Assembly (NCBI GenBank): GCA_023014365.1
Contig: JAEBUN010000005.1
Coordinates: 2,108,001-2,172,000 of the forward strand
DNA from: Lepiota brunneoincarnata
Taxonomy: Eukaryota > Basidiomycota > Agaricomycetes > Agaricales > Agaricaceae
DNA length: 64,000 nt
Reading direction: 5' to 3'
Positions 16,927-34,952 of the stretch are shown here, in pieces. Below the pieces are notes generated by a model that saw only the letters and a program-made list of their open reading frames with translations, did not search any database and was not told the DNA's origin. Each line of letters begins with the position of its first letter. Position 1 is the stretch's first letter. Position numbers and translations under genes: made by a program.

Positions 16927-17673
16927 CCTCTCCTGCTTTAATCTCCAGATCAAGCATGTACCTGGTACAAAAATACCTGCCGCCAATGCTCTCTCCTGAC
17001 GTCCTGACCATATCCCCGACAAAGACAAGGACAACAAATCCGTAACAGTATTACCCAAGACTATATTTGTCAACACCATCGACCAAGAAACCCATGACGA
17101 TATACTTCATAATAATATATACAACCTGCATACAACCAAGCAGATCACTGCTCTCATGACCGCCCCATACACCCCAACGGACTCCCGGTATTCTGTAACT
17201 TGAACCCCGAAAGGTCTAATTGTTACCTATGATGGTAGAACTGTTCCTCCAGAAAACCTCGAACTCCGCCGATGTATCATATGGAAATATCATAATTCCC
17301 CCACCGCAGGACACCCCAGTATCGATACAACCCTTCACGCATTGGAGCGTGATTTCTACTGGCCCGGTATGGCCAGTTTCACATGTGATTATGTCAAAGG
17401 ATGTGCTGACTGTCAACAGTTTAAGATTAACTAACACCCTGCCAAGCCTGCATTTACCCCTATCCCGGCACCCGATTCAAACCACCCATTCACCCAGATT
17501 GCAATGGATCTCATTACCAACCTCCCTCCCTCCACAGGTTTTGACTCAATTCTGTCCATTGTGGACCATGGACTCTCAAAGGGGGTAATTCTCACCGCTA
17601 CCAACAAATCCATGACTGCCGACGACATTGCCAACATCATTCTAAATAAGGTCTACCCGTGTTATGGCCTACC
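16927..17673 (+). pseudogene. Gypsy A RNase H end and integrase, first part
   Basis: The segment begins with FNLQIKHVPGTK, the end of RNase H, then runs through the integrase zinc-binding and catalytic start in shifted frames. DLITNLPPSTGFDSILSIVDHG (17504-17580) is the first catalytic Asp region. The KH element interrupts at 17674, right after VYPCYGLP. Confidence 0.75.
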
Positions 17674-17984
17674 TGTAAGGGGACTACACCCCCTTACGCA
17701 AGGTACGTCTAGGGGTCTGTGGTTGGGTATCCGTGCTCGGCCTCTCTAGCCGATGCCCGATGCCTAAGCCCGGCCTCGGCCTTCGGCCACTCCCATCCCC
17801 GAGTCTAACCCACGTGCGACTGACGTTGTTTGTATATTGTTTGCGTACTTTATGTTCTAGTAGCTACGTAGTGTTTGGCTACCCGGTCTGTGCGCAGGCC
17901 TCTATGTATATAAGTAGTGTGGGTGTCGATTGTATTCGCCACCCAAATATCAACTTGGTTCCGGTGCTCTTACTTCCCCTAACA
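17674..17984 (+). repeat. KH element 5' LTR
   Basis: TGTAAGGGG...CCCCTAACA. TATATAAG at 17907-17914 is followed 34 bp later by ACCCAAATAT (17941-17950). Compared with the 3' LTR: ACG/ACA near 17705, CCGG/CTGG near 17771 and one T/C difference near 17788. Confidence 0.92.
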
Positions 17985-17996
17985 GAATATTTGGGT
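17907..17996 (+). promoter_or_regulatory. KH element promoter and self-priming pair
   Basis: The TATA box is at 17907-17914. ACCCAAATAT at 17941-17950 is the exact reverse complement of ATATTTGGGT at 17987-17996, three bases inside the LTR end. The geometry matches elements A, B and C, with a 10-base rather than a 12-base pairing. Confidence 0.65.
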
Positions 17997-18065
17997 CTCT
18001 ACGCAGACTTGCCCATCTAGCCCTCTGCACCCCACCTACCCTGTCTTCTCAGCTCTAACGCTAGT

Positions 18066-19217
18066 ATGCCCTGCCGAAAGTCCTCAGGCAAACAGAAAGC
18101 GACTGTGCCCGCCCTACCGACAACGGCCCCTGCCTCGGCAGGACCCTCGCGTTCAGGCGAGGATACTCAGGCCTTACTGGCCCGGATCGGCGAGCTTAAC
18201 CGCTTGATCGGTTCGCTCTCATCCCACCTGCGCACCCTCGAGGATCGCACCTCGACGGCTGCTGCCGGTCCTACTCCAGCTGTCATTCAAGCAGCTACTA
18301 CCCAGAAGGGTCGCTCGCGGATCTCCGTGGATGTCCCACGCACTTCTAACCGCCCGGGCCCCACTCGCCCCGTGGTAAAAGGCACCTCTACCGCCCTCCC
18401 GCTGTCAGCTCACTACCCACGGGACGACGAGGCCGATCGCTATCAGGCCACCCTTGTCATCGCCGATGACATGGGTGGGCACGTGGTTGGTCGCGGCGGC
18501 CGCGGCCTTAAACAGGTCGCCGACATTAGTGGTGCTCACCTCCGGGTCTATTCTGTGGCCACGGATGGTGCCGACGAGCGCCATGTCTCTATCAGGGGGA
18601 CCGAGCAGCAACTCGGTGATGCCCTTGTGGTATTAGGTAAGCGGATTGCGCGCAAGCGCGTCCACCTTCCAAAGACGAAGAAGGAGAAGACAACGGCGGC
18701 TTCCGGCCCCGCCTCAGCGGCCCCCGGACTGTCCGCTCCTGCGGCGGCGCAGGCTCCCGCTCCAGCTCGTGTGGATCCCACTGCCTCCGGCTCTGCTACC
18801 CCGGTCCCTGACTGGGCGCATCCGGGTGCACGGTCTTCCTCGCAGGCCTCTTCTGTCGCCCCCACTCCCCCCATGATTTCTACCCCGGCCGGCGTCCCAT
18901 CGACTACTATGCGCACGGCCGCATCTACTCCTACCCCTATGCGCTCGCCCACGGTTTCTCGGCAACTGTTGCACGGCTCCCCCATGCCCATCTCTACCCC
19001 CTCCGGTGCGTCTACTCCCGGAGTCCCATCAGTCCGGATGGGAAGCGCTACCCCTACCCCTGCCTTGACCCCGATGGAGGTCGACAGCGTCATCTCGACC
19101 TGGGGCCAGGGACTTCCGCCTGTCGCCTACCCGGCCCGTCTCGACTATGCCCGTTCCCTTCTGGCGGATGGGCTTGTCATTCGGCTCGTGGATGGTCGCT
19201 GGGCTCGTGCTGCTTAG
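18066..19217 (+). CDS. KH-domain protein of a non-autonomous LTR element
   Basis: The 383-residue ORF begins at the first ATG after the primer site and ends 48 bp before the 3' LTR. It starts with a basic stretch (MPCRKSSGKQK), then a short leucine-rich, probably coiled-coil segment (about residues 35-62). A KH domain follows at about residues 127-200: the GxxG loop is VVGRGGRGLKQVADISG, followed by AHLRVYS and the last helix QQLGDALVVLGKRI. The C-terminal half is a long Ser/Thr/Pro/Ala-rich linker, and the last 40 residues look folded. KH domains bind single-stranded RNA (established). A Gag-like role in packaging the element RNA is inference. The reading frame is undamaged and CpG-rich. Confidence 0.85.
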   Translation: MPCRKSSGKQKATVPALPTTAPASAGPSRSGEDTQALLARIGELNRLIGSLSSHLRTLEDRTSTAAAGPTPAVIQAATTQKGRSRISVDVPRTSNRPGPTRPVVKGTSTALPLSAHYPRDDEADRYQATLVIADDMGGHVVGRGGRGLKQVADISGAHLRVYSVATDGADERHVSIRGTEQQLGDALVVLGKRIARKRVHLPKTKKEKTTAASGPASAAPGLSAPAAAQAPAPARVDPTASGSATPVPDWAHPGARSSSQASSVAPTPPMISTPAGVPSTTMRTAASTPTPMRSPTVSRQLLHGSPMPISTPSGASTPGVPSVRMGSATPTPALTPMEVDSVISTWGQGLPPVAYPARLDYARSLLADGLVIRLVDGRWARAA

Positions 19218-19265
19218 GACGGAGGAACCGAGTCGTCGGGTCATCGACTCTCAAGAGGGGGCTGG

Positions 19266-19576
19266 TGTAAGGGGACTACACCCCCTTACGCAAGGTACAT
19301 CTAGGGGTCTGTGGTTGGGTATCCGTGCTCGGCCTCTCTAGCCGATGCCCGATGCCTAAGCCTGGCCTCGGCCTTCGGCCACCCCCATCCCCGAGTCTAA
19401 CCCACGTGCGACTGACGTTGTTTGTATATTGTTTGCGTACTTTATGTTCTAGTAGCTACGTAGTGTTTGGCTACCCGGTCTGTGCGCAGGCCTCTATGTA
19501 TATAAGTAGTGTGGGTGTCGATTGTATTCGCCACCCAAATATCAACTTGGTTCCGGTGCTCTTACTTCCCCTAACA
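19266..19576 (+). repeat. KH element 3' LTR
   Basis: 311 bp, preceded by the purine tract AAGAGGGGGCTGG and followed by the TSD CTACC. About 99 percent identical to the 5' LTR, so the insertion is recent. Confidence 0.92.
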
Positions 19577-20131
19577 CTACCCGAACATATTATATCCAAC
19601 TGCAACCCACGCTTTACTGCGCATTCATTCCAGAAACTGTTAGAATGACTTGAAATAACCCCTGCAATGACCACAGCCTACCACCCTGAAGCAGATGGAG
19701 CAACTGAACGATCGCATCAGGAGACCCAAGCATATCTTTCCATTTTCTGTTTGCATCATCCCAAAAATTGGTCACAGGCTCTCCCTCTCCTCAAGTTCGC
19801 ATACAATAGCCGACTGCACACCTTACAAAAACAAACACCATTCAAAATCATTATGGGAATACAACCAAAAGCACTCCCCACTGTTCTCCTTGAAACCGAA
19901 TCTCCCACTGTCAACAACTGCATGGAACTCATCGATTTATACCATCAAAACACTAAAACCGCACATGAAGCCACTATGAAACACATGGAAAACCGATGCC
20001 AATCAAAGTTTACCCCGTTCCACAAAAATCAAATGGTTTGGCTCGACGCCCGGAATTTAAATACCTGCCCCCAAACATCTCGGACCATTCTGTATTCTCA
20101 ACATTTTATCCCCTGTTTCATATCAACTTGA
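19577..20131 (+). pseudogene. Gypsy A integrase, second part
   Basis: It resumes after the KH element with the second catalytic Asp region (SNCNPRF, where SDRDPRF is expected). Then comes MTTAYHPEADGATERSHQE with the catalytic Glu, LKFAYNSRLH and, near 20030, QMVWLDARNL. Changes in the DRD motif and frameshifts make it inactive. Confidence 0.8.
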
Positions 20132-20606: not shown

Positions 20607-21615
20607 ATGCCTTCCTCCATCCGTTCACTCCCATCCAAATCTGCTCTTATTTCTACCCTGCCTACATTAGATGGAACCACCAGGTCCTCATCCACTCAAC
20701 CTGACTCCAACCGCATCCTTTACCAATTCCTTGTTGAAAGTACCCTTAACACCACTGAAGACATACCACCCCCACGCTGTGTACCATGACAGACCACTCC
20801 CCCCAGTCCTGTTCCACCCATCGCTGAAACGCCAACCACCGTCCCTGCTCCCCCACTCATCGCTACAGTTAGCGACTATATTAACGAAGTTGACAGTGCC
20901 TCTACCCTCATCTTTTCGCTTCTTATTGCACCAACACCAGCAGTATCAACAGAAGTTTGTGATGGCTTCTTCCAACTCCGTGAAAACCTCCTCTGCCTCC
21001 GCGGCCTTGAACAAAGTGTTGAAAGAGTCAAAGAGGCAAACCAAAACACATTCAACTGCCTGTGGGCCGACCCCACCTTTCACCAAATCTTTACTGAGCA
21101 TTGCAGCTCCACAACCGGTATATGGATTGTGCCCGCAATCCCTAGTCCAATTCAACCTATGCCAACTGACAGACCAGCCCGATGAATCCCCGTTCACTCA
21201 ACGCACCGATGAGTTCAACCTGAACAACCTCCAAGCCCTGCTACCCCGCCTATTATTGTACCCCCTGCCTCCACACCACCACCCCGAACTCGATGACAAA
21301 CAGTGGACAACTTCACCCAGCGAATGGAAGCCTGTCAACAGCAGGAAACCCACCCCCTACCCCAAAGACCTCCTCAACATCGTACCACCCCCACCATCAC
21401 ACCCCAAGCCGTGACAACCCGTTCATATGATGTTGGAAGAAATCACTGCTTTGAATGTCACCAGATTGGCCACTGGGCACATAGCTGCCCCCGATACACC
21501 TGCCGCCACTGCAACCACTCTGCACCAGGACATTACATGTAAACCTGCCCTGTCTATCACCAAAACCAACAGAACACCACGCTCGAAAGGACAGCGCAAT
21601 GCTATCCCAATACCT
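20607..21615 (+). pseudogene. Gypsy A ORF3 with paired zinc knuckles
   Basis: Downstream of the chromodomain, fragments in shifting frames end in a cysteine-rich part at about 21440-21545: CFECHQIGHWAHSCPRYTC and then CNHSAPGHY. The same layout occurs in ORF3 of B and C. The 3' end is cut by the copia element at 21616 and by B, and resumes at 34953. Confidence 0.65.
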
Positions 21616-21962
21616 TGTAGGAAACAGTAAATCTCAGTCACTCGTTTACGCGCGAGTACTATCTTGTTATAAGTACCTGTAGGAAACAGTAAATCTGTAA
21701 TGACGTGAATACTGGGATGATAGAATGGTATAGACGGGGCTCACCTCAGTCACTCGTTTACGCGCGAGTACTGAGGGGAGCGTCCGTGGACTGTCTGCAA
21801 TATATATCTACATGTCTAAAAGGATAATGGGGGAACCATAAAGGCGCTACAAAGGGAAGAAGTATAAGGTCAAGGCACGTATTTAATAAAGGGCGAGGCT
21901 GTTGAATGCGTGTCCAAGGGGATTGTGGGTCCACGACCCTGCCACGTATTTGCGTTCCAACA
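21616..21962 (-). repeat. Copia 3' LTR
   Basis: On the plus strand it begins TGTAGGAAAC and ends GTTCCAACA. Internally it repeats TGTAGGAAACAGTAAATCT (21616 and 21678) and CAGTCACTCG...CGCGAGTACT (about 21636 and 21748). The second copy forms a hairpin. Confidence 0.92.
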
Positions 21963-21969
21963 CTCCCCT

Positions 21970-24900
21970 TCAAAACGTGGCGAGACCGAGACCATGAGCG
22001 AAGTGCTTGACTTTGGGTGATGGTAAGGCCTTGGTAAAGATGTCGGCCACCATTTCTTCAGTAGGGCAGTAGATGAGCACGAGCTTGCCGTCCTGTATGG
22101 TCCACCGGATAAAGTGATATCGTATATCGATGTGTTTGGTTCGGGCGTGGAACTGGTGATCTTGGGCAAGTGCGATCGCTGACTGATTGTCAGATAAGAG
22201 GGGGGTGGGTTTTAGTTGCACGTCGAAAATCTGTGTGATAAGAGAACGAAGCCAGAGGGCTTCTTTAGTAGCGTGAGTGGCTGCCACATACTCTGACTCC
22301 GTGGTAGACAGGGTGACCAGCTCCTGTCGTTTGGCGCTCCATGAAACAGCACCGCCGTTGATGATAAAGGCAAAACCTGATGTGGCACGGCGATCTTCGG
22401 CCATACTGCCATCTGCGTCTGTATACCCACTAACGTCTTCTCCAGCACCTCCATATGTAAGCCACAAGTCCCTTGTTCCCTTGAGATAGCGAAAAACGCG
22501 TTTTGCGGCCTCCCAGTGTGCGTTTCCAGGGTTCCTGGAAAAACGGGAGAGGTGTTGCACAGCGTATGCAATGTCCGGGCGTGTTCCGAGTGAGGCATAC
22601 ATTAAGGTTCCGATGGCCTCTTGATAAGGTACCTGGGCCATGCGTGCAATGTCGGCCGTTGACTTTGGGGATTGATCTGTTGTGAGCCTGACTGACGGAT
22701 CCATTGGTACACTGCTTGGCCTTGCATCCTCCAGGCCAAAACGTCGTAGCGAGGCATCAATATAAGATCTTTGAGACAGGTAGATCTTACGCTGGTCCCT
22801 GTCCCTTTTCACCTCTATCCCTAACAACCAATGTAGCTCTCCCAAATCAGTGATCTCGACAAAATTGGATATACGGGACTTGGCCCAAATGACGAGTGTG
22901 GTGGTTGTGGTGGCAAGTGTACAGTCATCAACATGTACAAATATGATACTGAGATTCGGAGGGTCGTTTTTGAAGAACACGCTATGGTCCACATCGCATC
23001 GTGTGAAACCCAGTTGGTCGATAAGGATCTCGCAAAGTTTCTGGTACCAGCGGCGGCCTGATTGTTTGAGGCCGTAGAGTGTCTTCTTCAGGTGGCATAC
23101 CTTGAGGGGGTGGCTTGGATCCTTGAAACCGGGAGGTTGGCGCATGTATAGGACTTCATCGTCAGTGAGTTCTCCATTTAGGTACGCTCCCTTGATATCA
23201 ATTTGATGTAGCTCCATGTCCCTTTCAGCTGCGATTGCCAGGATGGCCCGTATGGAAGAAAGTCTGGCCACCGGTGCATATGTGTCGAAATAATCAACAC
23301 CCGGCACCTGTGAGAAACCCTGTGCGACGAGACGGGCCTTATATCGAACGACGTTGCCGGCCGCATCCTTTTTTGCACGATATACCCATTTGGAGCCAAT
23401 AATGTTGGCGTTGCGAGGTGGGTCCACCAGCTCCCATGTTCCAGCCTTTTCCAAGGTGGCTAACTCTTCCCTCATTGCTCCCCACCACAGGTCTCGGTCT
23501 GCTCTCCCCTTCAAGTCTTTGAAGTTCTCAGGTTCCAAAGCCTCTGCCGACTCCATTTCGGCTGCAAATGCGCATGCTTCTTCCCAGTCAAGCTCTTCTA
23601 CAGACGTAACTGCACGGCCTTCAAGAATATCCTGTGCTTTCTGGCTTGGATTTCGGATGCGCTGGGGACGTTCAGGGATGCTTGAAATGGGTTCTGGGTG
23701 AGTGCTAGACATAGGGAAGGATCCTGGGATTTCAGGGGGACTCGTAATGGGTTCGCCGGCGGACTCGTTCGCTGTTTGCATGGTGGGTGGAGCATGTCCT
23801 TGAATCTCGCACTGAGGTTGACTACCCTCCCCTTCGAGATTCACATGGTTTCGAAAACGTACATTCCGTTCAACCTTGACAGCACCAGTATCTGGGAACC
23901 ATACCCGCATGCCATTGCTCTCGGTATCGAAACCCAACCAACGGGCTTTGCGAGCCCGGTCGTCCAGCTTGTTGCCCCCAGCGTTGTGCACCCAACAATC
24001 CTCACCCCACTCCCTCAGGCCCTCAAAGTCAGGCCGCTTCCCATACAACACCTCATATGGTGTCCTCCCAGCAACTGCCCTCGTCGCAGTTCTGTTCATC
24101 AGCCAGACAACATGCCCTACTGCCTCCGCCCACAGATATTTTGGCAAGCGAGGGACATGGTTTATAGCCCGGACACGTTCGAGAATTGTACGGTTTCGGC
24201 GCTCAGCAACCCCATTATGTTGCGGCGTGTCATGGACGGTAAGCTTACTTTCCGTTCCCTTGGACTTGAGGTAATCCTGAAAATCGTTTCCAGTGAATTC
24301 ACCGCCTCGATCCGAGTGCAGGGATTTGATGCGTGCATTAAACTGGGTCTGGCACCAGGCCTCGAAACGTTTGTAAGCTGCAGGGACGTCCGATTTGTTT
24401 GCAAGGAATTCAACATGGGTCCAGCGTGAGAAATCGTCTGTGAAGGTGACATAGTACTTTCTTCCCCTCTTCGTCTCATTTTGTGCAGGTCCCCAAACGT
24501 CAGAGTGAACCTCCTGCCCCAGCACGGTCGCCCGCTCGCCCCTTCTGACCTTTGCAACCGATAGGCATGTGGATTTGGCAAACACGCAAGACTCGCAAAA
24601 ATAGTCCGCTCCACCATCAGAATCCATTCGCAGCCCAGTCACCAGCCCATCCCTGATGAGCTTTCGAGCCGTTGCAGGCGCAATGTGTCCCAAGCGTCGG
24701 TGCACCATATCCAAGGTGAGTGGCTCCGTTACTGAAAGCACTTCAGATTCAACCTCCTTGATAACCTTGTACAGGCCCTGCTGATTTCGCATGATTTCAG
24801 CAACTCGCAGCCCCCCAGGATCCCGGATGACACACTTTCCGTGCCCGAAAGTGACAGTGAAGCCAGCCTCATCCAAACGTCCCACAGACACCAGCGTATA

Positions 24901-26271
24901 TCCAGTCTCTGGTGAGAATAAGACCTCCGTGAGTTGCAGCTGTGACATTACAGCACCGTTTGGAACTTCTAAAGCCATAGCACCTTTTCCAACAGCATTG
25001 AAGCTCTGTTTGTTCGCGGCACGCAAGGGTTTCGGTGGGATCTTCTGAAGCTTGTTGAATGCATTTCTGTATGGGGATATGTGGCGAGAGGATCCGGAGT
25101 CGAACAGGATTGTCTGAGTTGAGGTCGGTATGGTCTGCACCTGACCAGCATGGTCCTCATCGCAGGCCTCGCTCATGAAGACATCGACTTCACCGGTATT
25201 GGGCTCCAGGTTGACAATTGCATCCACCAACCAGTAGGTGTCATCATCTCCATCGGTATCGCTCTTCTCATCAGTGCCATCTTCAATCTCGACCATATAG
25301 GACTCGTCCTCCTCAATGGCTGCATTTGCTTGGGCCTTCTTGCCTTCCGCATTGTCTGGCTTGACCTTTCTATCATTCGGGCATTCTCTCCTCCAATGGC
25401 CCATCTTCCCACACTTGAAACACTTTGTCCTCTTCTTTATCTGGTCAATCTTTTGTTTGCCGGAGGACCCTCCAGAGCTCCCTTCAACTGCCATTGCATC
25501 ACCCACTTCATCGCGACCTTGGCGAGGTTTGGTCTGATTTGGCTGGTGGAACATGCGTGTGCGTTCCCATTCCCCTATGATCATCATGATGAACACTTCA
25601 GGGTCGATCGTAAAATTTAGGTGGGGATGAAGTTGTGCTGCTGAGAGCTGACCAGACGCATAGTGGGAGAGATGTCGAGGTAGGGACTGCAGTACAGCGC
25701 TTCTGTATTCATCATCACCAATGCTGACACCCATGGCAAGGAGCTCAGTTCGCTTAGCCCGAAGGTTGCCAAGGAACTGGCGGATGTCCCCTTTTTCAGG
25801 GCACCTCGCCTGCATGAATTCTCTCCGCATCTGCGCCTGAGCGAAGGCATTCTTGTGAGTGAATTCCTTTACTACGCCCGCCCACATAAGCTGAACAGTG
25901 GGCTCGTTATCGACCACCAGGAATGTAGGACCAGGGAGACGTTGTGCAAGTAAGGCACGAGCAACGTTTTCGCTACGATCCCACTCGAGCATCTCGGCAG
26001 TAGTGCCAAGGACGACTGTGGGTGCTGGTATGCTTGTAGTAGTGGTATCATCAGCTGTGGTGGTGGCTGCAGTGCCAGCTGCAGCACTTGTGGCTGGTGC
26101 GGGGATAGGGTTTGGCAGAGTGAGTACAGGACGGGGGGAGGAGCCATCAAAATGCCCCCACAACCCATGTCCTCGGATTGTCGTCCGGAACTGGCGCATG
26201 AATAGCACCCAGTTGGCACCGGTTTGCTCGAGATGGGGTACAGAGGGTGGCAGGCTTGTAACGGTAGACAT
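21970..26271 (-). CDS. Copia Gag-Pol polyprotein
   Basis: The 1,433-residue frame starts at the first ATG (26271). Order: Gag with a CCHC knuckle CFKCGKMGHWRREC (about residues 290-305); protease with LFDSGSSRHIS; a pre-integrase His/Cys region (HRRLGHI...CESC); integrase with YVTFTDDFSRWTHVEF, HSDRGGEF and HNGVAERRNRTI as the DDE triad context; reverse transcriptase from WVYRAKKDAAG through DIKGAYLNGEL to FVHVDDC (the YVDD box); and RNase H with GYTDADGSMAEDRRATSG and STTESEYVA. No stop or shift is seen. The protease acts on the polyprotein inside the particle, and integrase inserts the cDNA. Gag is expected to be overproduced by a route I cannot see in the sequence. Confidence 0.93.
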   Translation of the reverse strand: MSTVTSLPPSVPHLEQTGANWVLFMRQFRTTIRGHGLWGHFDGSSPRPVLTLPNPIPAPATSAAAGTAATTTADDTTTTSIPAPTVVLGTTAEMLEWDRSENVARALLAQRLPGPTFLVVDNEPTVQLMWAGVVKEFTHKNAFAQAQMRREFMQARCPEKGDIRQFLGNLRAKRTELLAMGVSIGDDEYRSAVLQSLPRHLSHYASGQLSAAQLHPHLNFTIDPEVFIMMIIGEWERTRMFHQPNQTKPRQGRDEVGDAMAVEGSSGGSSGKQKIDQIKKRTKCFKCGKMGHWRRECPNDRKVKPDNAEGKKAQANAAIEEDESYMVEIEDGTDEKSDTDGDDDTYWLVDAIVNLEPNTGEVDVFMSEACDEDHAGQVQTIPTSTQTILFDSGSSRHISPYRNAFNKLQKIPPKPLRAANKQSFNAVGKGAMALEVPNGAVMSQLQLTEVLFSPETGYTLVSVGRLDEAGFTVTFGHGKCVIRDPGGLRVAEIMRNQQGLYKVIKEVESEVLSVTEPLTLDMVHRRLGHIAPATARKLIRDGLVTGLRMDSDGGADYFCESCVFAKSTCLSVAKVRRGERATVLGQEVHSDVWGPAQNETKRGRKYYVTFTDDFSRWTHVEFLANKSDVPAAYKRFEAWCQTQFNARIKSLHSDRGGEFTGNDFQDYLKSKGTESKLTVHDTPQHNGVAERRNRTILERVRAINHVPRLPKYLWAEAVGHVVWLMNRTATRAVAGRTPYEVLYGKRPDFEGLREWGEDCWVHNAGGNKLDDRARKARWLGFDTESNGMRVWFPDTGAVKVERNVRFRNHVNLEGEGSQPQCEIQGHAPPTMQTANESAGEPITSPPEIPGSFPMSSTHPEPISSIPERPQRIRNPSQKAQDILEGRAVTSVEELDWEEACAFAAEMESAEALEPENFKDLKGRADRDLWWGAMREELATLEKAGTWELVDPPRNANIIGSKWVYRAKKDAAGNVVRYKARLVAQGFSQVPGVDYFDTYAPVARLSSIRAILAIAAERDMELHQIDIKGAYLNGELTDDEVLYMRQPPGFKDPSHPLKVCHLKKTLYGLKQSGRRWYQKLCEILIDQLGFTRCDVDHSVFFKNDPPNLSIIFVHVDDCTLATTTTTLVIWAKSRISNFVEITDLGELHWLLGIEVKRDRDQRKIYLSQRSYIDASLRRFGLEDARPSSVPMDPSVRLTTDQSPKSTADIARMAQVPYQEAIGTLMYASLGTRPDIAYAVQHLSRFSRNPGNAHWEAAKRVFRYLKGTRDLWLTYGGAGEDVSGYTDADGSMAEDRRATSGFAFIINGGAVSWSAKRQELVTLSTTESEYVAATHATKEALWLRSLITQIFDVQLKPTPLLSDNQSAIALAQDHQFHARTKHIDIRYHFIRWTIQDGKLVLIYCPTEEMVADIFTKALPSPKVKHFAHGLGLATF

Positions 26272-26319
26272 AATTTCGAGTGTTTGGGCAAAAATTCTTT
26301 CTAGGTTTAGCAACGGGCG

Positions 26320-26331
26320 GGGCCCATAACC
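26320..26331 (-). promoter_or_regulatory. Copia primer-binding site (initiator tRNA-Met, internal)
   Basis: The plus strand GGGCCCATAACC, directly against the 5' LTR, equals the anticodon stem-loop of eukaryotic initiator tRNA-Met (CAT is the anticodon). So the RNA would be primed by a half-tRNA, as for Drosophila copia (established mechanism, recalled tRNA sequence). Confidence 0.8.
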
Positions 26332-26678
26332 TGTAGGAAACAGTAAATCTCAGTCACTCGTTTACGCGCGAGTACTATCTTGTTATAAGTACCTGTAGGA
26401 AACAGTAAATCTGTAATGACGTGAATACTGGGATGATAGAATGGTATAGACGGGGCTCACCTCAGTCACTCGTTTACGCGCGAGTACTGAGGGGAGCATC
26501 CGTGGACTGTCTGCAATATATATCTACATGTCTAAAAGGATAATGGGGGAACCATAAAGGCGCTACAAAGGGAAGAAGTATAAGGTCAAGGCACGTATTT
26601 AATAAAGGGCGAGGCTGTTGAATGCGTGTCCAAGGGGATTGTGGGTCCACGACCCTGCCACGTATTTGCGTTCCAACA
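26332..26678 (-). repeat. Copia 5' LTR
   Basis: Same structure as 21616-21962. The only difference I find is GAGCATCC here versus GAGCGTCC there. Confidence 0.92.
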
Positions 26679-26699
26679 TACCTTTGGATGAACATACAA

Positions 26700-27397
26700 T
26701 GTTATGAACAGTCCAGACCGGGAGGAACAAGAACTATTGTTCGACTTTACAAGATGGGTACAGGAGACTACAGACCAATTACGGGCACAAGAATACGAAG
26801 ACAAGGAAGGGGAATATTACACCGCCATGCAGGACCTGGCGAGAGAAGCAGGAATGGAGATAACCTTGGAGGATATATTGGAATACCCCGAGGACGAGGA
26901 AGATAACCATGGATCAACCGACCCAACCTCCGATACGGATGGAAGCACTGAGAGAATGGAGAGCGAGAACGGAGAGGACTCCATGGAGATACAATCGGGA
27001 GAAGAAGATTATGAGTCAGAGGAAAGCGATGGAACATTGCACAGCAGTAGCGAGAGTACTGACTCATTGTAATATAAATAACGCTAGGATGCCATCAGCC
27101 AGGATGTGCATCATGGTCAGGACTGCGCACGACCAGTAGAACAGCCAAGTAACCTATAACGAGTATATAGCACCTCATAGGTATATAAGGCCTGTACAAG
27201 TAGAGATTAAAGCCTCAAGCTTTAATCTTGTTAACAGCGGTCATTTACCTCTCTGCCTTAACTTGGCGTCTTCCCTCGTTATCTCATTGAGCGCGATCCA
27301 CTAAGCTCTATAAGGCCAACCGTCTCGGACACCTTGTAGAGTGATTGAAGGCCGTCTCCAGTTATCCTCGGATACAGAAGGAGCATGGATCATAACA
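26700..27397 (+). repeat. Gypsy B 5' LTR
   Basis: Starts TGTTATGA and ends TCATAACA, an 8-bp terminal inversion. It holds the U3 ORF (26704-27072) and the promoter described separately. Confidence 0.94.
26704..27072 (+). CDS. U3-encoded acidic ORF, 5' LTR copy
   Basis: 122 residues starting four bases inside the LTR (MNSPDREEQELL) and ending SSSESTDSL. It is strongly acidic and Ser-rich toward the C-terminus. One residue differs by a CpG transition from the 3' LTR copy (K for E). It lies upstream of the TATA box, so this 5' copy would not be on the element RNA. Confidence 0.45.
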   Translation: MNSPDREEQELLFDFTRWVQETTDQLRAQEYEDKEGEYYTAMQDLAREAGMEITLEDILEYPEDEEDNHGSTDPTSDTDGSTERMESENGEDSMEIQSGEEDYESEESDGTLHSSSESTDSL

Positions 27398-27411
27398 TTA
27401 GATTAAAGCTT
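27182..27411 (+). promoter_or_regulatory. Gypsy B promoter and self-priming pair
   Basis: TATATAAG at 27182-27189, then AAGCTTTAATCT at 27217-27228 (35 bp from the TATA start). The site AGATTAAAGCTT at 27400-27411, just past the LTR end, is its exact 12-base reverse complement. A local hairpin (27203-27212 with 27219-27228) also covers the presumed RNA start. Confidence 0.75.
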
Positions 27412-28324
27412 CCTTTGGACAACCTCCATCGTACACCCCGTGGCATCGGTACGCCTTGTCGCTACCCTTCCACACCGGCAGACGATACGCTTTATCGCTA
27501 TCCGAGTGCCAACCGTATCTGACGACACGCCTTGTCGCTGTCCGGTGATACACCCCCGTAGAGCAGGCCACCATACCCTCTGCACCCTTGGTCAGACGCA
27601 CCGAAAGTGTTGATAGGTCATCCACACCTTTAAGTGTTGATTGGGATAACGCACCCGTAAGCGTTGTATACAGGTCATCCGCACCTTCAAGCGTCGATTG
27701 GGATAACGCACCCGCAAGCGTTGTTTATTCACCCTCACCTTCACCTTCGACTTCTTCCCTCTTCACCCTGTCTACAAACCGAAACGACCCCCTTGCCACC
27801 GACTACGAAGAATCCAACAGTTCTGACTGGTTGACAACCGACTCCGAACCCGACTTCACACCCCCTCCACCACGGACCCTAAAAAGAAAACAAAACCTAT
27901 ACCCCTCACTCGTTCACCCTCTGGTTCCGCACCGTACCCTACACAACCTACCGAGAGAGTTCAACGTCGAACAGAAGACCCAGGATACCCAGCACCCCCA
28001 GCATCAGTTCTTCAATCCCTACCTAAACAACCACCACCTGAAAGAACTGCCACCTCTACCCGCTCAAAGCTCGGGGAGCCGATTCATAGAACATCTACCC
28101 CATCCTCCGGTCCTCAACCCTCAACAAGTACAAGAACTAGCGACAACACTTCGCAACAGAAACCCCCAAGAACATTCTCACCCCTCACATCACCACTTGG
28201 ATCACCGGTACACTCACCGCCTCGATCCAGTTCCCCTGTACAATCCGAACCATCCGAAGCTAGCCCCACTACCGGGTCTATTCACACTTCCGACGAGAAA
28301 TCCACAACCTCTGACATTAACAAT
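27412..28324 (+). other. Gypsy B leader with short tandem repeats and an overlapping ORF
   Basis: This holds repeats of the type ACGCCTTGTCGCT (27450-27540) and two copies of a 57-bp unit with TTGATTGGGATAACGCACCCG (27612-27725). A long ORF begins at 27588 and overlaps gag in another frame as far as 29354. In the gag frame the sequence is also free of stops from about 27830, though without ATG, and reads as a Pro/Ser/Thr-rich chain. Which is translated is unclear. Confidence 0.45.
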
Positions 28325-29449
28325 ATGGCCTCCTCCGCAAAAATTAACACACCCCCAACCTTTAATGGAGAGACCGACTACTTCCACCTCTGGAAGGATG
28401 CAGTACAACTATACATCGATGCAAAGCCAGGAGCCTTTTCCGATGACAAGACCAAGATACAATTCGCCCTTTCATACATGTCCACCGGCCCCGCCGCAAC
28501 ATGGAGAGGAGCATTCTTGGAATCAAACAAAGAACTTGATGGAAGCCAGACCCTTCCGACATGGAAGAAATTTCTCGAAGGACTCGATACATCCTTTGCC
28601 CCAAACAATGTCCCCGCCGATGCAATGGACAGAATCCGCCACCTCAAACAGAATGGACGATATATCGATGATTACATATCCCAGTTCCAGATACTTGCCT
28701 ATCAGGCCGACCTTGGAGATGGAGTGGCGGCGGTCAACTATTTCAAGAACGGGCTGGATCGCCCCGTCGCAATCAAGACAATTAGCCTCAATCCAGGAAA
28801 CAAACTCAGCGACTGGTTCAAGCAAGCTCGAACAGCATATCAAATACTACAAACTCAACGCGACTATATGCAAACTCGAGGAACTCCCTCGTTTCCAACG
28901 ACTTCGCGCACTCGCCCATTTAAAGGGAAAAGAAATGCTTTTACGCGCCGTGTCCCACTGCCCTATCAAGCAACAGACCCTAACGCAATGGATATTGACC
29001 AACTCGCCGAAGCAGTCTATAACCTCGACTTTGAGGATGAGCCAGATCTACTTGCCGAAGAAGCTGATGAAGACGAGGAGACTGAAGAAGACAGACTCCA
29101 CCAGTTGGTACAAGAACGCACCCGCGAAGCCCTCAACGCAATCCTCACGGACGCCCAAAGAAAGGATCTCAAAGAAAAGAGATGCTTCAACTGCCACAAG
29201 ACTGGACACTTCGCCCGCGAATGCCCCACCAAAAAGACAATATATCGCCGATCCGAATTACCCCGCAATTTGGATGCCAGAAACCGGTCAAATGCGATAT
29301 CCAGAAGAAGACAAGCAAGCTACAGGAAAAAGAACTCGCTATACAACATACTAGAAGATGCAACCGACGAAGAAGTCAAGGACATCTACGAACATTTTGC
29401 AAATGAATCCAACCACCCAGATGCCCCTCTGGTTAAGGATTTTGCCTAA
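28325..29449 (+). CDS. Gypsy B Gag
   Basis: 374 residues from ATG 28325 (MASSAKINTPPTFNG). The capsid part resembles retrotransposon Gag, with FHLWKDAVQLYI, ATWRGAFL and IDDYISQFQILAYQA. The region at residues 215-275 is acidic. One CCHC knuckle, CFNCHKTGHFAREC, lies at about residues 287-300. Role: particle assembly and genomic RNA binding. The frame may extend upstream without ATG. It ends at TAA 29447-29449 inside a 13-nt overlap with pol. Confidence 0.9.
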   Translation: MASSAKINTPPTFNGETDYFHLWKDAVQLYIDAKPGAFSDDKTKIQFALSYMSTGPAATWRGAFLESNKELDGSQTLPTWKKFLEGLDTSFAPNNVPADAMDRIRHLKQNGRYIDDYISQFQILAYQADLGDGVAAVNYFKNGLDRPVAIKTISLNPGNKLSDWFKQARTAYQILQTQRDYMQTRGTPSFPTTSRTRPFKGKRNAFTRRVPLPYQATDPNAMDIDQLAEAVYNLDFEDEPDLLAEEADEDEETEEDRLHQLVQERTREALNAILTDAQRKDLKEKRCFNCHKTGHFARECPTKKTIYRRSELPRNLDARNRSNAISRRRQASYRKKNSLYNILEDATDEEVKDIYEHFANESNHPDAPLVKDFA

Positions 29450-32400
29450 GGAGACTAGCCACCACGTCTAGCCCTCCACAAAGACCTCCTTCCCTTTCCT
29501 ATTCACAAAATGATATTAATGTTGTAAAATTACAGGAATCGTCAGCACGTGTAATACATCTACCCTGTCGAATCCGAAAACACAAGTTCACTAAGGAAGG
29601 ACCCGAAAGCGTGGAACTACTCGCCCTACTCGACTCAGGAGCAGCAGGAAACTTCATTGACCCCGGAATGGTCAAACAACATTCATTCAAAACAACACCC
29701 CTCGATCGACCCATCGAAGTACGAAATGCCGATGGATCTGTTAACGAAAATGGAACAGCCACCCACTACACGACCCTCAACCTAACGGTTAACGGGAAAA
29801 ATATGGAGATCAAACCAAAAGTAGTCTCCCTCGGAAGCCCAAGACTCATCCTTGGATTCCCTTGGCTTGCAGAACACAACCCAGACATTGACTGGGATGC
29901 CAAACAACTACGCTGGAGAAACGAACGTTGGGACAACACTATATTCCGAGAACTCATCCAATCCATGGAACCCGATTGGATCTACAACGACCAACTCAAC
30001 CACATCTCCACACTAGAGCCCACAAGCTTCGAAGAAATCAACTTCAAAGCCTCCGCATCACAATTCCTCGCCGTACAACACGGAGAAAAGAAAAACGACG
30101 ACCCAAGAAAAGTCGTACCCACGGAATTCCACGAATACCTCCCAGTATTTAGCAAGAAACAAGCCGAACGATTCCCCCCACAACAACCATGGGATCACAA
30201 AATTGAACTCAAGGAATCATTCAAACCAATTGCCATGAAGTCCTACCGACTCTCCCTCAATGAAGAAAAGGAACTCGACACGTTCCTAGAAGAAAACCTT
30301 CAAAAGGGATACATTCGACCATCCGAATCGCCAATGGCATCACCCTTCTTCTTCGTAGGAAAGAAAGATGGAAAACTACGCCCCTGTCAAGACTACAGGT
30401 ACCTCAACGAGCATACCGTCAAAAATGCGTACAACCTCCCCCTCATCTCTCATATTCTCGACAAACTCCAAGGATCAAAGTACTTTACCAAACTCGACGT
30501 ACGAGCAGGATACAACAACATCCGCATACGCAAAGGAGATGAATGGAAAGGAGCCTTCAGGACACCCCGAGGATTATTCGAACCCACGGTTATGTTCTTT
30601 GGAATGTGTAACTCCCCAGCAACATTCCAAACCATGATGGACTCATTATTTCGAAAACTCATCGACAATGGAGGAGTAATCATTTACATGGACGACATCC
30701 TCATTCACGCAAAAACAAAACAAGAACTCCGACGCCTCACAAGAGAAGTACTCAAGATACTCAAGGACAACGATCTATATCTCAAAACTGAGAAATGCGA
30801 ATTCGAGCAACAACGACTCGAATATCTAGGAGTTATTATCACTCCCGACTCAGTTTCGATGGACCCAGCAAAGCTCAAAGGCATCGCTGAATGGCCAACA
30901 CCAACTACCCCACGCGACGTACGAAAATTCATAGGATTTTGCAACTTCTATCGAAAATTCATACACCAATACGCCATATGGGCAAAACCTCTCAATGCCC
31001 TAATGTCCAAAACCAAGAAATTCGAATGGACAGAAGAATGCCAGAACGCCTTCGATACTCTCAAGAGGAAATTCCAAAGCGAACCGGTATTAATGGTCCC
31101 CGACCGAGACAAACCCTTCGAAATCGAATGCGACGCATCACTATTTGCATCAGGAGCAGTCCTACTTCAACGCGACAACAATGGAGTTAAACACCCAGTC
31201 GCATACTTCTCGAAAGGATTCTCACCAGCCGAACACAACTATCATTGCTCCGAACAGGAACTCTTCGCCATTATCCGAGCACTCAAAGAATGGCGTCACC
31301 ACATAGAAGGATCATCACACAAGACCATCGTATGGTCAGATCACGACAACCTTCGCCGCTGGAGAAAACCTGAAGACCTCAGCAGAAGACAAGCCCGATG
31401 GATTGCCTACATGCAACGATTTGACATCGAAATCCAACATATCCCTGGAAAGAAAAATGGACCAGCAGACGCCCTTTCCAGACGACCCGATCATGAACCC
31501 AAGACAAGAGACAACAAACAGGTCGTTGCACTCCCTGACAAATTCTTCACCTCAGAACAGCCACAACATATCCATATTATCGACGAAAATACTAAACAGG
31601 AAATAAAAGAGCTGTGGAAGAAAAAGAAACAGACCGACATCGCCCAAGAAGATGACTCAGGACACCCACGTGTTCAAGGAAAACTATTTATACCACAAGA
31701 TTTACACCTCAGACGCCGCTTACTGCAAAGAGTACACGACTCACCCACCGCAGGACACCCTGGAATCGCAGAAACAACTAGAAAACTCCAGGAATACGCC
31801 TACTGGCCCGGGATGCGATCATTTGTCAAAAACTATGTCAAAGGATGTGGTGCTTGCCAACAATACAAGATCAATCGCCACCCCCTAAAACCACCGCTTC
31901 AACCTATCCCTGGACCCCATTCTACCCGTCCATTCTCGAACATCTCGATGGATCTTATCACAGACCTACCCCCGGACGGACCCCATGATTCTATACTGGT
32001 CGTGGTCGACCAGCTTACGAAGGGGATAATTCTAGAACCTACTGCGAAAACCGCCAACGTGGACAAGATCGCCGAAATTCTTATCAAACGGCTATTCTCT
32101 AGATTTGGCCTTCCCGAGAAAGTTCTCAGTGATCGCGACCCCAGATTTGCTGCCAAATCCATGAAAGAATTCTACAAACAACTCGGAATCGAACAAGCAC
32201 TCTCTACCACCTACCACCCCCAGACAGACAGACAAACAGAGCGATTCAATCAAGAAATAGAACTCTACCTTGGCATCTATTGCTCATCGAACCCGAACAA
32301 ATGGGTAAAGGCACTCCCACTCCTGGAATATGTCCACAACTCAAAAACACATGCTGAACATCAACATACCCCATTTGAACTCCTCTATGGATCAAGCCCC

Positions 32401-32790
32401 AAAGGATTTCCGACCTCCGAGGAGCCAACGAACATTCCAGCAATAGGAGAGAAGTTTAAATACCTCGCCAAGATACGCCAAGAAGCCCAAGCTGCGCATG
32501 AACAAGCCAGACTAAAAATGGCTGCAAGATATAACCGGCCAGATATCAATCTAAAAGTTGGACAGAAGGTTTGGCTCGACAACCGCAACCTCCCAATTCA
32601 GTACGCCTCAAAGAAACTGGCCCAACGCCGAGAAGGTCCCTTCACCATAACAAGAAAACTCGGACCTGTAACCTATGAACTAAAATTACCCATCAAATGG
32701 AAGATCCACAACAAGTTTCATGCGAGCCTCCTAATGCCTGCAGAAGAGAACGACACACATGGGGAATACAACACAGCCCCACCACCCTGA
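29437..32790 (+). CDS. Gypsy B Pol: protease, RT, RNase H, integrase
   Basis: The frame is open from 29437 and lies -1 relative to gag; there is no obvious ATG before the protease. Protease: LLALLDSGAAGNFID and LILGFPWL. Reverse transcriptase: FFVGKKDGKLRPCQDYRYLN, FTKLDVRAGYNNIRI, FFGMCNSPATFQ and the catalytic IIYMDDILIH. RNase H: IECDASLFASGAVLLQ, SEQELFAI and DALSRRP. Integrase: HHCC-type zinc finger (VHDSPTAGHPG...CGACQQYK), then DLITDLPP, SDRDPRF and YHPQTDRQTERFNQE as the DDE context, and the GPF(T/I) module. No internal stops. It ends PAEENDTHGEYNTAPPP, where a frameshift separates the chromodomain. Confidence 0.93.
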   Translation, partial: GFCLRRLATTSSPPQRPPSLSYSQNDINVVKLQESSARVIHLPCRIRKHKFTKEGPESVELLALLDSGAAGNFIDPGMVKQHSFKTTPLDRPIEVRNADGSVNENGTATHYTTLNLTVNGKNMEIKPKVVSLGSPRLILGFPWLAEHNPDIDWDAKQLRWRNERWDNTIFRELIQSMEPDWIYNDQLNHISTLEPTSFEEINFKASASQFLAVQHGEKKNDDPRKVVPTEFHEYLPVFSKKQAERFPPQQPWDHKIELKESFKPIAMKSYRLSLNEEKELDTFLEENLQKGYIRPSESPMASPFFFVGKKDGKLRPCQDYRYLNEHTVKNAYNLPLISHILDKLQGSKYFTKLDVRAGYNNIRIRKGDEWKGAFRTPRGLFEPTVMFFGMCNSPATFQTMMDSLFRKLIDNGGVIIYMDDILIHAKTKQELRRLTREVLKILKDNDLYLKTEKCEFEQQRLEYLGVIITPDSVSMDPAKLKGIAEWPTPTTPRDVRKFIGFCNFYRKFIHQYAIWAKPLNALMSKTKKFEWTEECQNAFDTLKRKFQSEPVLMVPDRDKPFEIECDASLFASGAVLLQRDNNGVKHPVAYFSKGFSPAEHNYHCSEQELFAIIRALKEWRHHIEGSSHKTIVWSDHDNLRRWRKPEDLSRRQARWIAYMQRFDIEIQHIPGKKNGPADALSRRPDHEPKTRDNKQVVALPDKFFTSEQPQHIHIIDENTKQEIKELWKKKKQTDIAQEDDSGHPRVQGKLFIPQDLHLRRRLLQRVHDSPTAGHPGIAETTRKLQEYAYWPGMRSFVKNYVKGCGACQQYKINRHPLKPPLQPIPGPHSTRPFSNISMDLITDLPPDGPHDSILVVVDQLTKGIILEPTAKTANVDKIAEILIKRLFSRFGLPEKVLSDRDPRFAAKSMKEFYKQLGIEQALSTTYHPQTDRQTERFNQEIELYLGIYCSSNPNKWVKALPLLEYVHNSKTHAEHQHTPFELLYGSSPKGFPTSEEPTNIPAIGEKFKYLAKIRQEAQAAHEQARLKMAARYNRPDINLKVGQKVWLDNRNLPIQYASKKLAQRREGPFTITRKLGPVTYELKLPIKWKIHNKFHASLLMPAEENDTHGEYNTAPPP

Positions 32791-33106
32791 CCTTGTAAAT
32801 GGAGAAGAAGAATACGAGGTCGAGTCAATACTGCGCCACAGAAAATTCCGGAACAAGTATCAATTCCTAGTCAGATGGAAAGGATACCTTCCCACTGAGG
32901 ATTCCTGGGAGCCAGAAGCAAACCTGGAGAACGCCAAGGAAGTCATTGAAGAATATAAAAGGGCCCACAAATTAGACAACCCCACCAATGACCCAACCAC
33001 CCAACACTCGAGCAACCACTCCAGACCTCCCAGAGCCAGACAACGATGGACGCCTTCTCATCCGGGAAAGAATCATATCCCTGGCGAACCGCGTCGCAGG
33101 AAATAG
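32759..33106 (+). CDS. Gypsy B chromodomain segment
   Basis: The chromodomain EEEYEVESILRHRK..YQFLVRWKGYLPTEDSWEPEANL is complete but sits in another frame than the integrase, which stops at 32790. In A and C the chromodomain follows a PPP stretch in frame. Here CCACCACCCTGACC looks like CCACCACCTGACC with one extra C, so a single-base insertion in this copy is likely. A programmed shift is the alternative. Confidence 0.75.
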   Translation: MGNTTQPHHPDLVNGEEEYEVESILRHRKFRNKYQFLVRWKGYLPTEDSWEPEANLENAKEVIEEYKRAHKLDNPTNDPTTQHSSNHSRPPRARQRWTPSHPGKNHIPGEPRRRK

Positions 33107-34202
33107 CCAACCTAACCCTGCCACCGATACTGCTGACGACCAACCAGACAGGACCAACAGTCCTTATATCATCCGGCATACCTTCCTTCCCTCCAACCAA
33201 CCCGAGATACGATCCATCCTTTTACACGAAGTTCCCTTTCATATTACCGGAACCCGTCTTAAACGCAGTCCAGCGATGGTACCCCTGGTCGACACCTGCT
33301 GGAAGACATTTACTGCTCTTCTGTATCACAAGCGCCTCGTCCACGACCGAGCAACAGAATTCGAAAAACTATGCGCCACTATTCTTTCTAGCGCAACAGA
33401 GGAACAGGACCACAATACCATTTCTGCCATGCTATCAACCGCTCTCACCGAATTCCCGTTCGAGAGTCCGATCCCAAGCCCGAGCAATGGAAGCGGAAGT
33501 CAGGACCGCCCTATCCTACCTATCGGGACCACCACCCAACCTTCCAACCCTCCCATGGTGGATACGAGTAACCAACCATCAAGTGTTGTACAAGCTATAT
33601 CTGCTTCTAATGACGCCCCCATCGGGACTACCACCACTCACTTATCCACCACCCGAACTCGCTGCAATTGCTGCCATCGATTCGGCCATATCAAAGCAGG
33701 ATGCCCGCGCTACCAATGTCGATATTGTCGAAAGATTGCCCCAGGCCATTACGAGAAGCACTGCGAGAGAAACCCTTACCAGCATCAACCCGCAAGTATG
33801 GTACCTGGCCTGTATCGCCGCCCACGAGGAATACCAAGCAGAGCTCGATCCCTCACACGCGAAACCACAAACAACAATATTCGACACATTGTTGCAAGCA
33901 CCGAGCAGCGCCCCGCTTCAGCCAGACCCCTCCGCACCCGAATTCAAAATGCCCCCGTCGTCATTCTGACCACCAACGCCACCACCACACCTGCTAGCGG
34001 AAGCCACCAACTTCCTGAATCAATCCTTCGGCGCACCCGCCACCATTCACTCCAGAGAACCCATCGTCATCGACCTCACCCAAGACCCGCCATCCCCAGA
34101 CCACCAAGCTACCGAAGCGACTCCCCAGAACCCGACCCATACTTCGACTGGGACCCCATCGCCGAATCAAACATTACAGGAGAGCCTGTCGGATTATACT
34201 GA
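32988..34202 (+). CDS. Gypsy B ORF3, tandem zinc-knuckle protein
   Basis: 404 codons downstream of pol. The N-terminal 215 residues are of unknown fold, with WKTFTALLYHKRL and FEKLCATIL as helix-like stretches. At about residues 226-260 a paired knuckle CNCCHRFGHIKAGC-PRYQC-RYCRKIAPGHYEKHC is seen. The C-terminus is basic and Pro-rich, ending IAESNITGEP plus four residues. The paired knuckle recurs in A and C and the end motif recurs in C. It may bind nucleic acid. The family is not one I recognise. A 307-aa ORF in another frame overlaps it. Confidence 0.65.
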   Translation: MTQPPNTRATTPDLPEPDNDGRLLIRERIISLANRVAGNSQPNPATDTADDQPDRTNSPYIIRHTFLPSNQPEIRSILLHEVPFHITGTRLKRSPAMVPLVDTCWKTFTALLYHKRLVHDRATEFEKLCATILSSATEEQDHNTISAMLSTALTEFPFESPIPSPSNGSGSQDRPILPIGTTTQPSNPPMVDTSNQPSSVVQAISASNDAPIGTTTTHLSTTRTRCNCCHRFGHIKAGCPRYQCRYCRKIAPGHYEKHCERNPYQHQPASMVPGLYRRPRGIPSRARSLTRETTNNNIRHIVASTEQRPASARPLRTRIQNAPVVILTTNATTTPASGSHQLPESILRRTRHHSLQRTHRHRPHPRPAIPRPPSYRSDSPEPDPYFDWDPIAESNITGEPVGLY

Positions 34203-34245
34203 GGATATGTCTGATGAGGACATCAGACCTTACGAAAGGGGATAA

Positions 34246-34947
34246 TGTTATGAACAGTCCAGACCGGGAGGAACAAGAACTATTGTTCGACTTTACAAGA
34301 TGGGTACAGGAGACTACAGACCAATTACGGGCACAAGAATACGAAGACGAGGAAGGGGAATATTACACCGCCATGCAGGACCTGGCGAGAGAAGCAGGAA
34401 TGGAGATAACCTTGGAGGATATATTGGAATACCCCGAGGACGAGGAAGATAACCATGGATCAACCGACCCAACCTCCGATACGGATGGAAGCACTGAGAG
34501 AATGGAGAGCGAGAACGGAGAGGACTCCATGGAGATACAATCGGGAGAAGAAGATTATGAGTCAGAGGAAAGCGATGGAACATCGCACAGCAGTAGCGAG
34601 AGTACTGACTCATTGTAATATAAATAACGCTAGGATGCCATCAGCCAGGATGTGCATCATGGTCAGGACTGCGCATGACCAGTAGAACAGCCAAGTAACC
34701 TATAACGAGTATATAGCACCTCATAGGTATGTATATAAGGCCTGTACAAGTAGAGATTAAAGCCTCAAGCTTTAATCTTGTTAACAGCGGTCGTTTACCT
34801 CTCTGCCTTAACTTGGCGTCTTCCCTCGTTATCTCATTGAGCGCGATCCACTAAGCTCTATAAGGCCAACCATCTCGGACACCTTGTAGAGTGATTGAAG
34901 GCCGTCTCCAGTTATCCTCGGATACAGAAGGAGCACGGATCATAACA
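34246..34947 (+). repeat. Gypsy B 3' LTR
   Basis: 702 bp, preceded by the purine-rich AAAGGGGATAA and followed by the TSD TACAA. It carries a 4-bp insertion before the TATA box relative to the 5' LTR. Confidence 0.94.
34250..34618 (+). CDS. U3-encoded acidic ORF, 3' LTR copy
   Basis: 122 residues from ATG 34250 to TAA 34618. An in-frame ATG at 34214, in the internal region, would add 12 residues. The protein begins NSPDREEQELLFDFTRWVQE, has the conserved block MEITLEDILEYPE, and ends in an acidic Ser-rich tail. In the element RNA this copy sits at the 3' end, downstream of ORF3 and inside U3. No homologue recognised. The frame is open in all four LTR copies in the window. Confidence 0.6.
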   Translation: MNSPDREEQELLFDFTRWVQETTDQLRAQEYEDEEGEYYTAMQDLAREAGMEITLEDILEYPEDEEDNHGSTDPTSDTDGSTERMESENGEDSMEIQSGEEDYESEESDGTSHSSSESTDSL

Positions 34948-34952
34948 TACAA

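Follow-up and report, generated by a model that had tools for sequence, protein, structure and literature searches.

A polymerase-less LTR retrotransposon family of Lepiota brunneoincarnata with a KH-domain gene and a predicted self-primer

How is a retrotransposon without polymerase genes copied, and why would the one gene that it keeps encode a protein of RNA-binding type? The question is raised by a 1.9-kb element in a stretch of 64,000 nucleotides from the basidiomycete Lepiota brunneoincarnata (assembly GCA_023014365.1, contig JAEBUN010000005.1, positions 2,108,001 to 2,172,000 of the forward strand; hereafter the window, to which plain coordinates refer). At 17674 to 19576, two long terminal repeats (LTRs) enclose a single long open reading frame (ORF) for a 383-residue protein with a KH domain. 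Our best explanation, to which we give roughly even odds (a probability near 0.5), is that this KH element is self-priming and chromovirus-dependent, and that the KH protein helps the element's RNA to enter chromovirus particles. The features on which the argument draws are these:

17669 to 17673, no strand: target-site duplication (TSD) CTACC, left (flank comparison)
17674 to 17984, forward strand: 5' LTR, 311 bp, TGTAAGGGGAC...CCCCTAACA (repeat comparison)
17907 to 17913, forward strand: TATATAA, 34 nt upstream of the predicted RNA start
17920 to 17945, forward strand: hairpin at the predicted U3/R boundary, its 3' arm overlapping the first self-primer nucleotides, with compensatory changes among copies
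17941 to 17950, forward strand: predicted RNA 5' end and self-primer ACCCAAATAT
17987 to 17996, forward strand: primer-binding site ATATTTGGGT, 2 nt past the LTR, complement of 17941 to 17950
18066 to 19217, forward strand: ORF of the KH protein, 383 aa (stop counted in the coordinates)
18153 to 18260, forward strand: predicted long helix, residues 30-65, coiled-coil-like (structure model)
18450 to 18626, forward strand: KH domain (type I), residues 129-187, GRGG loop (Pfam, PDB sequence search, model, Foldseek)
19071 to 19085, forward strand: PMEVD motif near the C-terminus, kept in most relatives
19253 to 19261, forward strand: polypurine tract AAGAGGGGG
19266 to 19576, forward strand: 3' LTR, 311 bp (repeat comparison)
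19577 to 19581, no strand: TSD CTACC, right (flank comparison)

The element, its copies and its single gene

With paired LTRs, TSDs and no polymerase genes, the 1.9-kb element is a non-autonomous LTR retrotransposon. Its LTRs have ends of the TG...CA type (TGTAAGGGGA...TCCCCTAACA) and show 3 differences over 311 bp (LTR positions 34, 98 and 118), and the ORF contains 0 internal stops; KH_1 was the only Pfam family found in the protein at E<=1, with no protease, reverse transcriptase (RT), RNase H or integrase. These results reproduce what an original prediction, made from the letters of the window, had described, namely the 311-bp LTRs with their three differences, the CTACC duplication, the purine tract, the clean 383-aa ORF and the missing enzymes. 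The insertion site is the integrase region of a decayed chromovirus, with integrase-like frames on both sides (translations read by eye). An inverted repeat, GTAAGGGG...CCCCTTAC, opens the LTR (17674-17699).

Searching the genome (55.6 Mb, 95 contigs) by tblastn with the KH protein matched 106 stretches, a count of stretches and not of copies, from which the 30 best-matched copies were cut out with their flanks. LTR pairs were found in 28 of them (all but L003 and L015), at 89.5-100% identity, and 27 of these 28 carry a perfect 5-bp TSD (the exception being L023), with 25 different duplications among them. Since the LTRs of L018 are identical, they point to recent movement. A pattern search for LTR ends beside primer sites, which allowed <=3 mismatches and used the reversed pattern as control, revealed 57 junctions of KH type versus 0 in the control; the pattern AGGGGGN{2,9}TGTAAGGGGAC, joining tract and 3' LTR, gave 86 matches versus 0, which by our own count split into 53 of KH type (AGGGGGCTGG), 31 of the type of a chromovirus described below and 2 of neither. 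The original prediction had called for full-length copies with TSDs and had conceded that a captured host gene present only once would tell against it; dozens of copies are present.

Two LTR/primer junctions, in loci L031 and L032, have no KH stretch right behind them and are KH copies broken by other elements, the LTR elements in question having inserted just past the leader (L031:565-8262 and L032:804-9797). An autonomous partner sharing the KH element's primer site was considered and rejected, its two candidate junctions being these same interrupted copies.

The 383-aa frame is the sole long ORF that the family has kept, and 23 of the 30 best matches span its whole length, give or take one residue, with no stop codon; there is one stop each in L024, L025, L026 and L029. 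To measure constraint we set the ratio of nonsynonymous to synonymous change (dN/dS, here w) against 200 neutral simulations that used the substitution pattern of the LTR and leader. Between subfamilies A and B (L001/L018), w was 0.36 versus a neutral mean of 0.89, with 0 of 200 runs as low, and over the KH segment (residues 105-206) it fell to 0.17, again with 0 of 200 runs as low; Jukes-Cantor correction gave 0.31 for the whole ORF and 0.15 for the KH segment. In each of five pairs tried, the KH segment lay below all 200 of 200 simulations. This comparison, which the original prediction had proposed for the KH segment, indicates purifying selection on the ORF between subfamilies, most marked over KH.

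The domain assignment itself held up well, including against the original prediction's own caution that the match might disappear in profile searches. KH_1 (PF00013) matches residues 129-187 at E=1.6e-7 with 31.4 bits (cut-off 21.5), the closest solved structures by sequence are hnRNP K KH3 chains (E=2e-6), and in a structure model built from 21 sequences a KH fold is predicted at about residues 114-199 (block means of the predicted confidence score, pLDDT, 76 to 94), for which the best PDB match by Foldseek is PCBP2 KH3 (TM score 0.87 by target length). Pfam, model and Foldseek agree on the type I order (beta-alpha-alpha-beta-beta-alpha with a GxxG loop), and the only match to a viral model at E<=0.001 is a mimivirus KH protein. 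The model as a whole has a mean pLDDT of 62, with 182 of 383 residues below 50; besides the KH fold it holds a helix (residues 30-65), disordered parts and a small piece at the C-terminus (336-381), and no capsid-like domain was seen in it. Likewise, neither Retrotrans_gag nor any other gag family matched the ORF at E<=1. No constraint could be measured over the C-terminal piece (19071-19214), although it is modelled with pLDDT of about 80-90, and in some relatives an arginine-rich tail takes its place.

A profile search returned 53 relatives, from 7,998 candidates scored, in fungi and metagenomes; PF00013 is precomputed on 42 of the 53 and other families are listed on 0, and two of the 53 carry species names (Mycena citricolor and Termitomyces). 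Scans of viral and genome contig collections yielded no relative with DNA context elsewhere. In an alignment of 21 sequences, invariant residues concentrate in KH and in the basic stretch after it.

A covarying self-primer and its hairpin

How the element might start its own copying is suggested by ten nucleotides beside the LTR, as ATATTTGGGT (17987-17996) is complementary to ACCCAAATAT within the LTR (17941-17950), 34 nt past TATATAA. We infer that the RNA starts at 17941 and that reverse transcription is likely primed by the first ten nucleotides of the element's own RNA. In Tf1, the first 11 nt serve as primer. The leader would then be 125 nt long, and in L001, L005 and L018 it has no ATG ahead of the ORF; its C-richness (8 CCC in sense versus 1 in antisense) is a bare observation that is not used as evidence. 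When the primer site was shuffled 5000 times, a 10-nt match arose in 4 trials, and the stretch 17940-18030 folds with the ten-pair helix at z -2.06, with 3 of 200 shuffles as good.

Across 42 distinct LTR/primer junctions in the cut-out loci, primer and site are perfectly complementary over 10 nt in 35, in four haplotypes: ACCCAAATAT (17 junctions), ACCTGAATAT (15), ATCTGAATAT (2) and ACTTGATTAT (1), the last in the L033 lineage, where protein identity is about 40%. This primer haplotype covariation is sequence evidence that selection maintains self-priming pairs in an element from a fungus that is not a yeast. The other 7 of 42 (L029, L032, L039, L040, L041, L048, L049) have one or two mismatches. 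In L029, L039, L048 and L049 the primer site and the LTR stretch come from different haplotypes, as if subfamilies had swapped LTR and inside, and L029, with a B-type primer site and an A-type LTR, may be a mosaic.

Next to the self-primer, between the TATA and the predicted start, lies the hairpin at 17920-17945, whose 3' arm enters the primer stretch. The four KH-family variants tried all fold far better than their shuffles (z -3.59, -5.63, -3.70 and -3.85). Comparing the 22 distinct 32-mers among the 42 junctions with the ten-pair B-type stem revealed all ten pairs in 7, nine in 4, eight in 5 and seven in 4; the outliers are L033, with five pairs and a different strong stem, and L032, with three. 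Three stem positions show two-sided changes (C-G/T-A, G-C/A-T, and G-C/C-G or T-G). If the RNA starts at 17941, the complete hairpin would exist only near the RNA's 3' end, ahead of the primer stretch's second copy. There it could prevent this copy from base-pairing to the primer site, or could present a loop to the KH protein. The hairpin is a defined candidate binding site. Neither the covariation of the self-primer nor the hairpin had been noticed in the original prediction.

A candidate partner chromovirus

An element without enzymes needs a supplier, and the original prediction had it borrow them from a chromovirus. A chromovirus with matching LTR termini is indeed present and is our candidate partner. 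It lies at L031:2098-8262, is autonomous, has 453-bp LTRs that are 100% identical and a TSD AATCC, and encodes a Gag with Retrotrans_gag and zf-CCHC as well as a Pol frame with protease, RT, RNase H, integrase, a Tf2-1-like SH3 and a chromodomain. It has in common with the KH element the LTR start TGTAAGGGGAC, the LTR end CCCTAACA and the GA after the LTR, and it likewise has its own 10-nt self-primer with a 2-nt offset from the LTR. Its type of primer junction occurs 34 times in the genome, and by our count a matching 3' junction lies 5,257 to 5,279 bp away from 16 of the 34, which means 16 insides of unchanged length; the L031 copy is the only one of its type whose inside was read. The KH element is likely mobilised in trans by a chromovirus of the L031 type.

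The other LTR families examined have other termini (TGTTATGAAC..., TGTCATATCC...). Within the window, a Gypsy element at 26698-34948 has LTRs of about 700 bp and, 2 nt past the LTR, a self-primer match of 12 nt (AAGCTTTAATCT). Lyophyllum shimeji and Pleurotus djamor have relatives of the chromovirus pol. Beside the Gypsy element, a Copia-like element occupies 21606-26678; it lies on the minus strand and has an open frame of 1459 aa and repeats of about 357 bp that are 98.9% alike.

A short motif may also connect the two elements. The PMEVD of the KH protein falls under [SP]M.[VIL][DSG], which is present within the last 40% of the protein in 31 of the first 39 relatives; the L031 Gag carries VPMDID immediately ahead of its zinc knuckle, and the window Gag at 27827-29449 has a counterpart, AMDID, before its CCHC knuckle. 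PM[DEQA][VI]D arose in 15 of 20,000 shuffles and a chance origin is possible; that PMEVD may dock onto Gag is no more than a hint.

What the KH protein may do

The cycle that we infer from the anatomy, covariation, selection and matching termini would begin with RNA from the 5' LTR, which would both be translated into KH protein and serve as genome. The KH protein, perhaps as a dimer formed through its N-terminal helix, would grip the element's RNA in single-stranded form, possibly near the hairpin, and steer it to chromovirus Gag; a chromovirus of the L031 type would supply Gag, protease, RT and integrase. The first ten RNA nucleotides would prime minus-strand synthesis at the site beside the LTR, and the partner's RT and integrase would complete and insert the copy, guided by the common LTR termini. 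RNA binding by the protein, its function and the identity of the partner are all putative here. The original prediction had gone further in supposing that the KH protein replaced the CCHC Gag. This is probably not so, because the model has no capsid-like part and the candidate partner has a CCHC Gag of its own; KH is most likely an accessory that favours its own RNA and not a capsid. A bolder version, in which KH protein and hairpin form a private recognition pair that gives the element's RNA an advantage over the partner's own RNA in entering the partner's particles, we put forward tentatively, as possible but on balance doubtful.

Several observations weigh against our best explanation. The link to the partner consists of about 11 + 10 terminal nucleotides, other DNA similarity between the L031 chromovirus and the KH element was nothing convincing (best E 0.013), and the chromoviruses compared are only part of those in the genome; the window chromovirus at 26700-34948 also has a self-primer (12 nt, offset 2), so the layout of priming does not by itself point to L031. 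The L031 chromovirus has no such hairpin (z 0.39), the folding of the longer RNA piece 17915-18030 does not stand out from that of its shuffles (z -0.64, 49 of 200 as good), and L028 and L030 have one leader ATG each. Constraint on the ORF is also uneven, with none measurable over the C-terminal 48 residues in L001/L018 (82 of 200 runs as low), over the N part in L001/L028 (41 of 200) or over the linker in L018/L030 (61 of 200), and with an overall w of 0.78 in L018/L037 (a value not simulated). Inside subfamily A, segregating changes number 103 nonsynonymous versus 62 synonymous, as would be expected of copies that decay after insertion.

Other roles for the protein have to be set against this one. 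It could be a post-transcriptional helper, acting in export, stability or translation of the element's or the partner's RNA and not in packaging. Among solved structures, the closest KH domains are those of hnRNP K, PCBP, Nova and FUBP1; they, the basic stretch after KH and the absence of a capsid-like part from the model would all suit such a role, and PMC10309623 describes a protein of the Cer1 retrotransposon as required for genomic RNA export. The PMEVD motif that the partner Gag has in common with the KH protein, and the element's want of any Gag, favour the particle stage instead; neither is decisive. We consider the helper role a serious but rather unlikely alternative. That the protein is a divergent Gag, with a helix and a KH in place of a zinc knuckle, assembling or co-assembling particles, is less likely again: its single ORF stands in the Gag position, has an N-terminal helix and carries a motif resembling those before the CCHC knuckles of the L031 Gag and the window Gag, but Retrotrans_gag is missing at E<=1, the model shows no capsid-like fold and nearly half its residues fall below pLDDT 50, and the motif could be chance at the shuffling rate given above.

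Captured genes are known in transposons and host KH genes exist in this genome, so an ordinary short non-autonomous LTR element with a host KH gene as passenger has also to be considered. A PF00013 search of the genome found no close host parent, however, the best of 13 host KH segments reaching 21.3 bits; in addition, the ORF is kept among subfamilies and in the lineage of 40% protein identity that carries a primer haplotype of its own, and 53 relatives exist elsewhere, which makes a passenger very improbable. We give least credence to interference, by which the KH protein would restrain the partner chromovirus or the host and the element would gain indirectly; it has a parallel in p22, the Gag-derived inhibitor in Ty1 (PMC4599808), but by itself would not copy the element.

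Among known systems, the closest kind is the TR-GAG, a terminal-repeat retrotransposon with a GAG domain in plants, one of which transposed in Arabidopsis ddm1 (PMC8704663). Like the KH element, TR-GAGs have two LTRs and a single ORF without pol, and they are mobilised in trans, as the KH element probably is; unlike it, their ORF is a Gag, whereas the KH element's is a KH protein in which no Gag domain was found, and host (a fungus) and type of priming differ as well. Terminal-repeat retrotransposons in miniature (TRIMs) are usually described as having no coding capacity, from which the KH element departs with its 383-aa ORF under apparent purifying selection. TRIMs and large retrotransposon derivatives (LARDs) are reported in Boletales, where they are called non-coding (PMC5689174), and LARDs in Laccaria (PMC3411680); these resemble the KH element as short or large LTR elements without pol. 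In Tf1 and Tj1, too, the primer site is the complement of the RNA's 5' part, and PMC4600332 describes self-priming for the former and proposes it for the latter; they are autonomous, whereas the KH element has no pol, its primer and site covary and a hairpin adjoins the primer. Clades of basidiomycete chromoviruses are named in PMC2864245; set beside MarY1-like and other such chromoviruses, which encode Gag and Pol, the candidate partner has the Tf2-1-like SH3, integrase and chromodomain. The KH domain itself is of the hnRNP K/PCBP kind (type I, GxxG loop, best sequence and fold matches), but here it occurs as a single KH in the protein of an LTR element, beside a long helix and a disordered tail. 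In the literature searched, which had subscription journals and Repbase outside its scope, we found no LTR element with a KH ORF among the matches listed, and an earlier description is possible. New here are the covarying self-primer and site, the covarying hairpin adjoining them, and a chromovirus with common termini and its own CCHC Gag.

Most LTR elements without pol are regarded as passive RNAs or carry a Gag. A protein of RNA-binding type, apparently under selection as the only gene, raises the question of how a parasite's RNA may gain entry to another element's particles. If the bolder version, with its private recognition pair, is true, the KH element would be an LTR element that has ceded Gag and Pol to another element, retaining only the protein that chooses the RNA.
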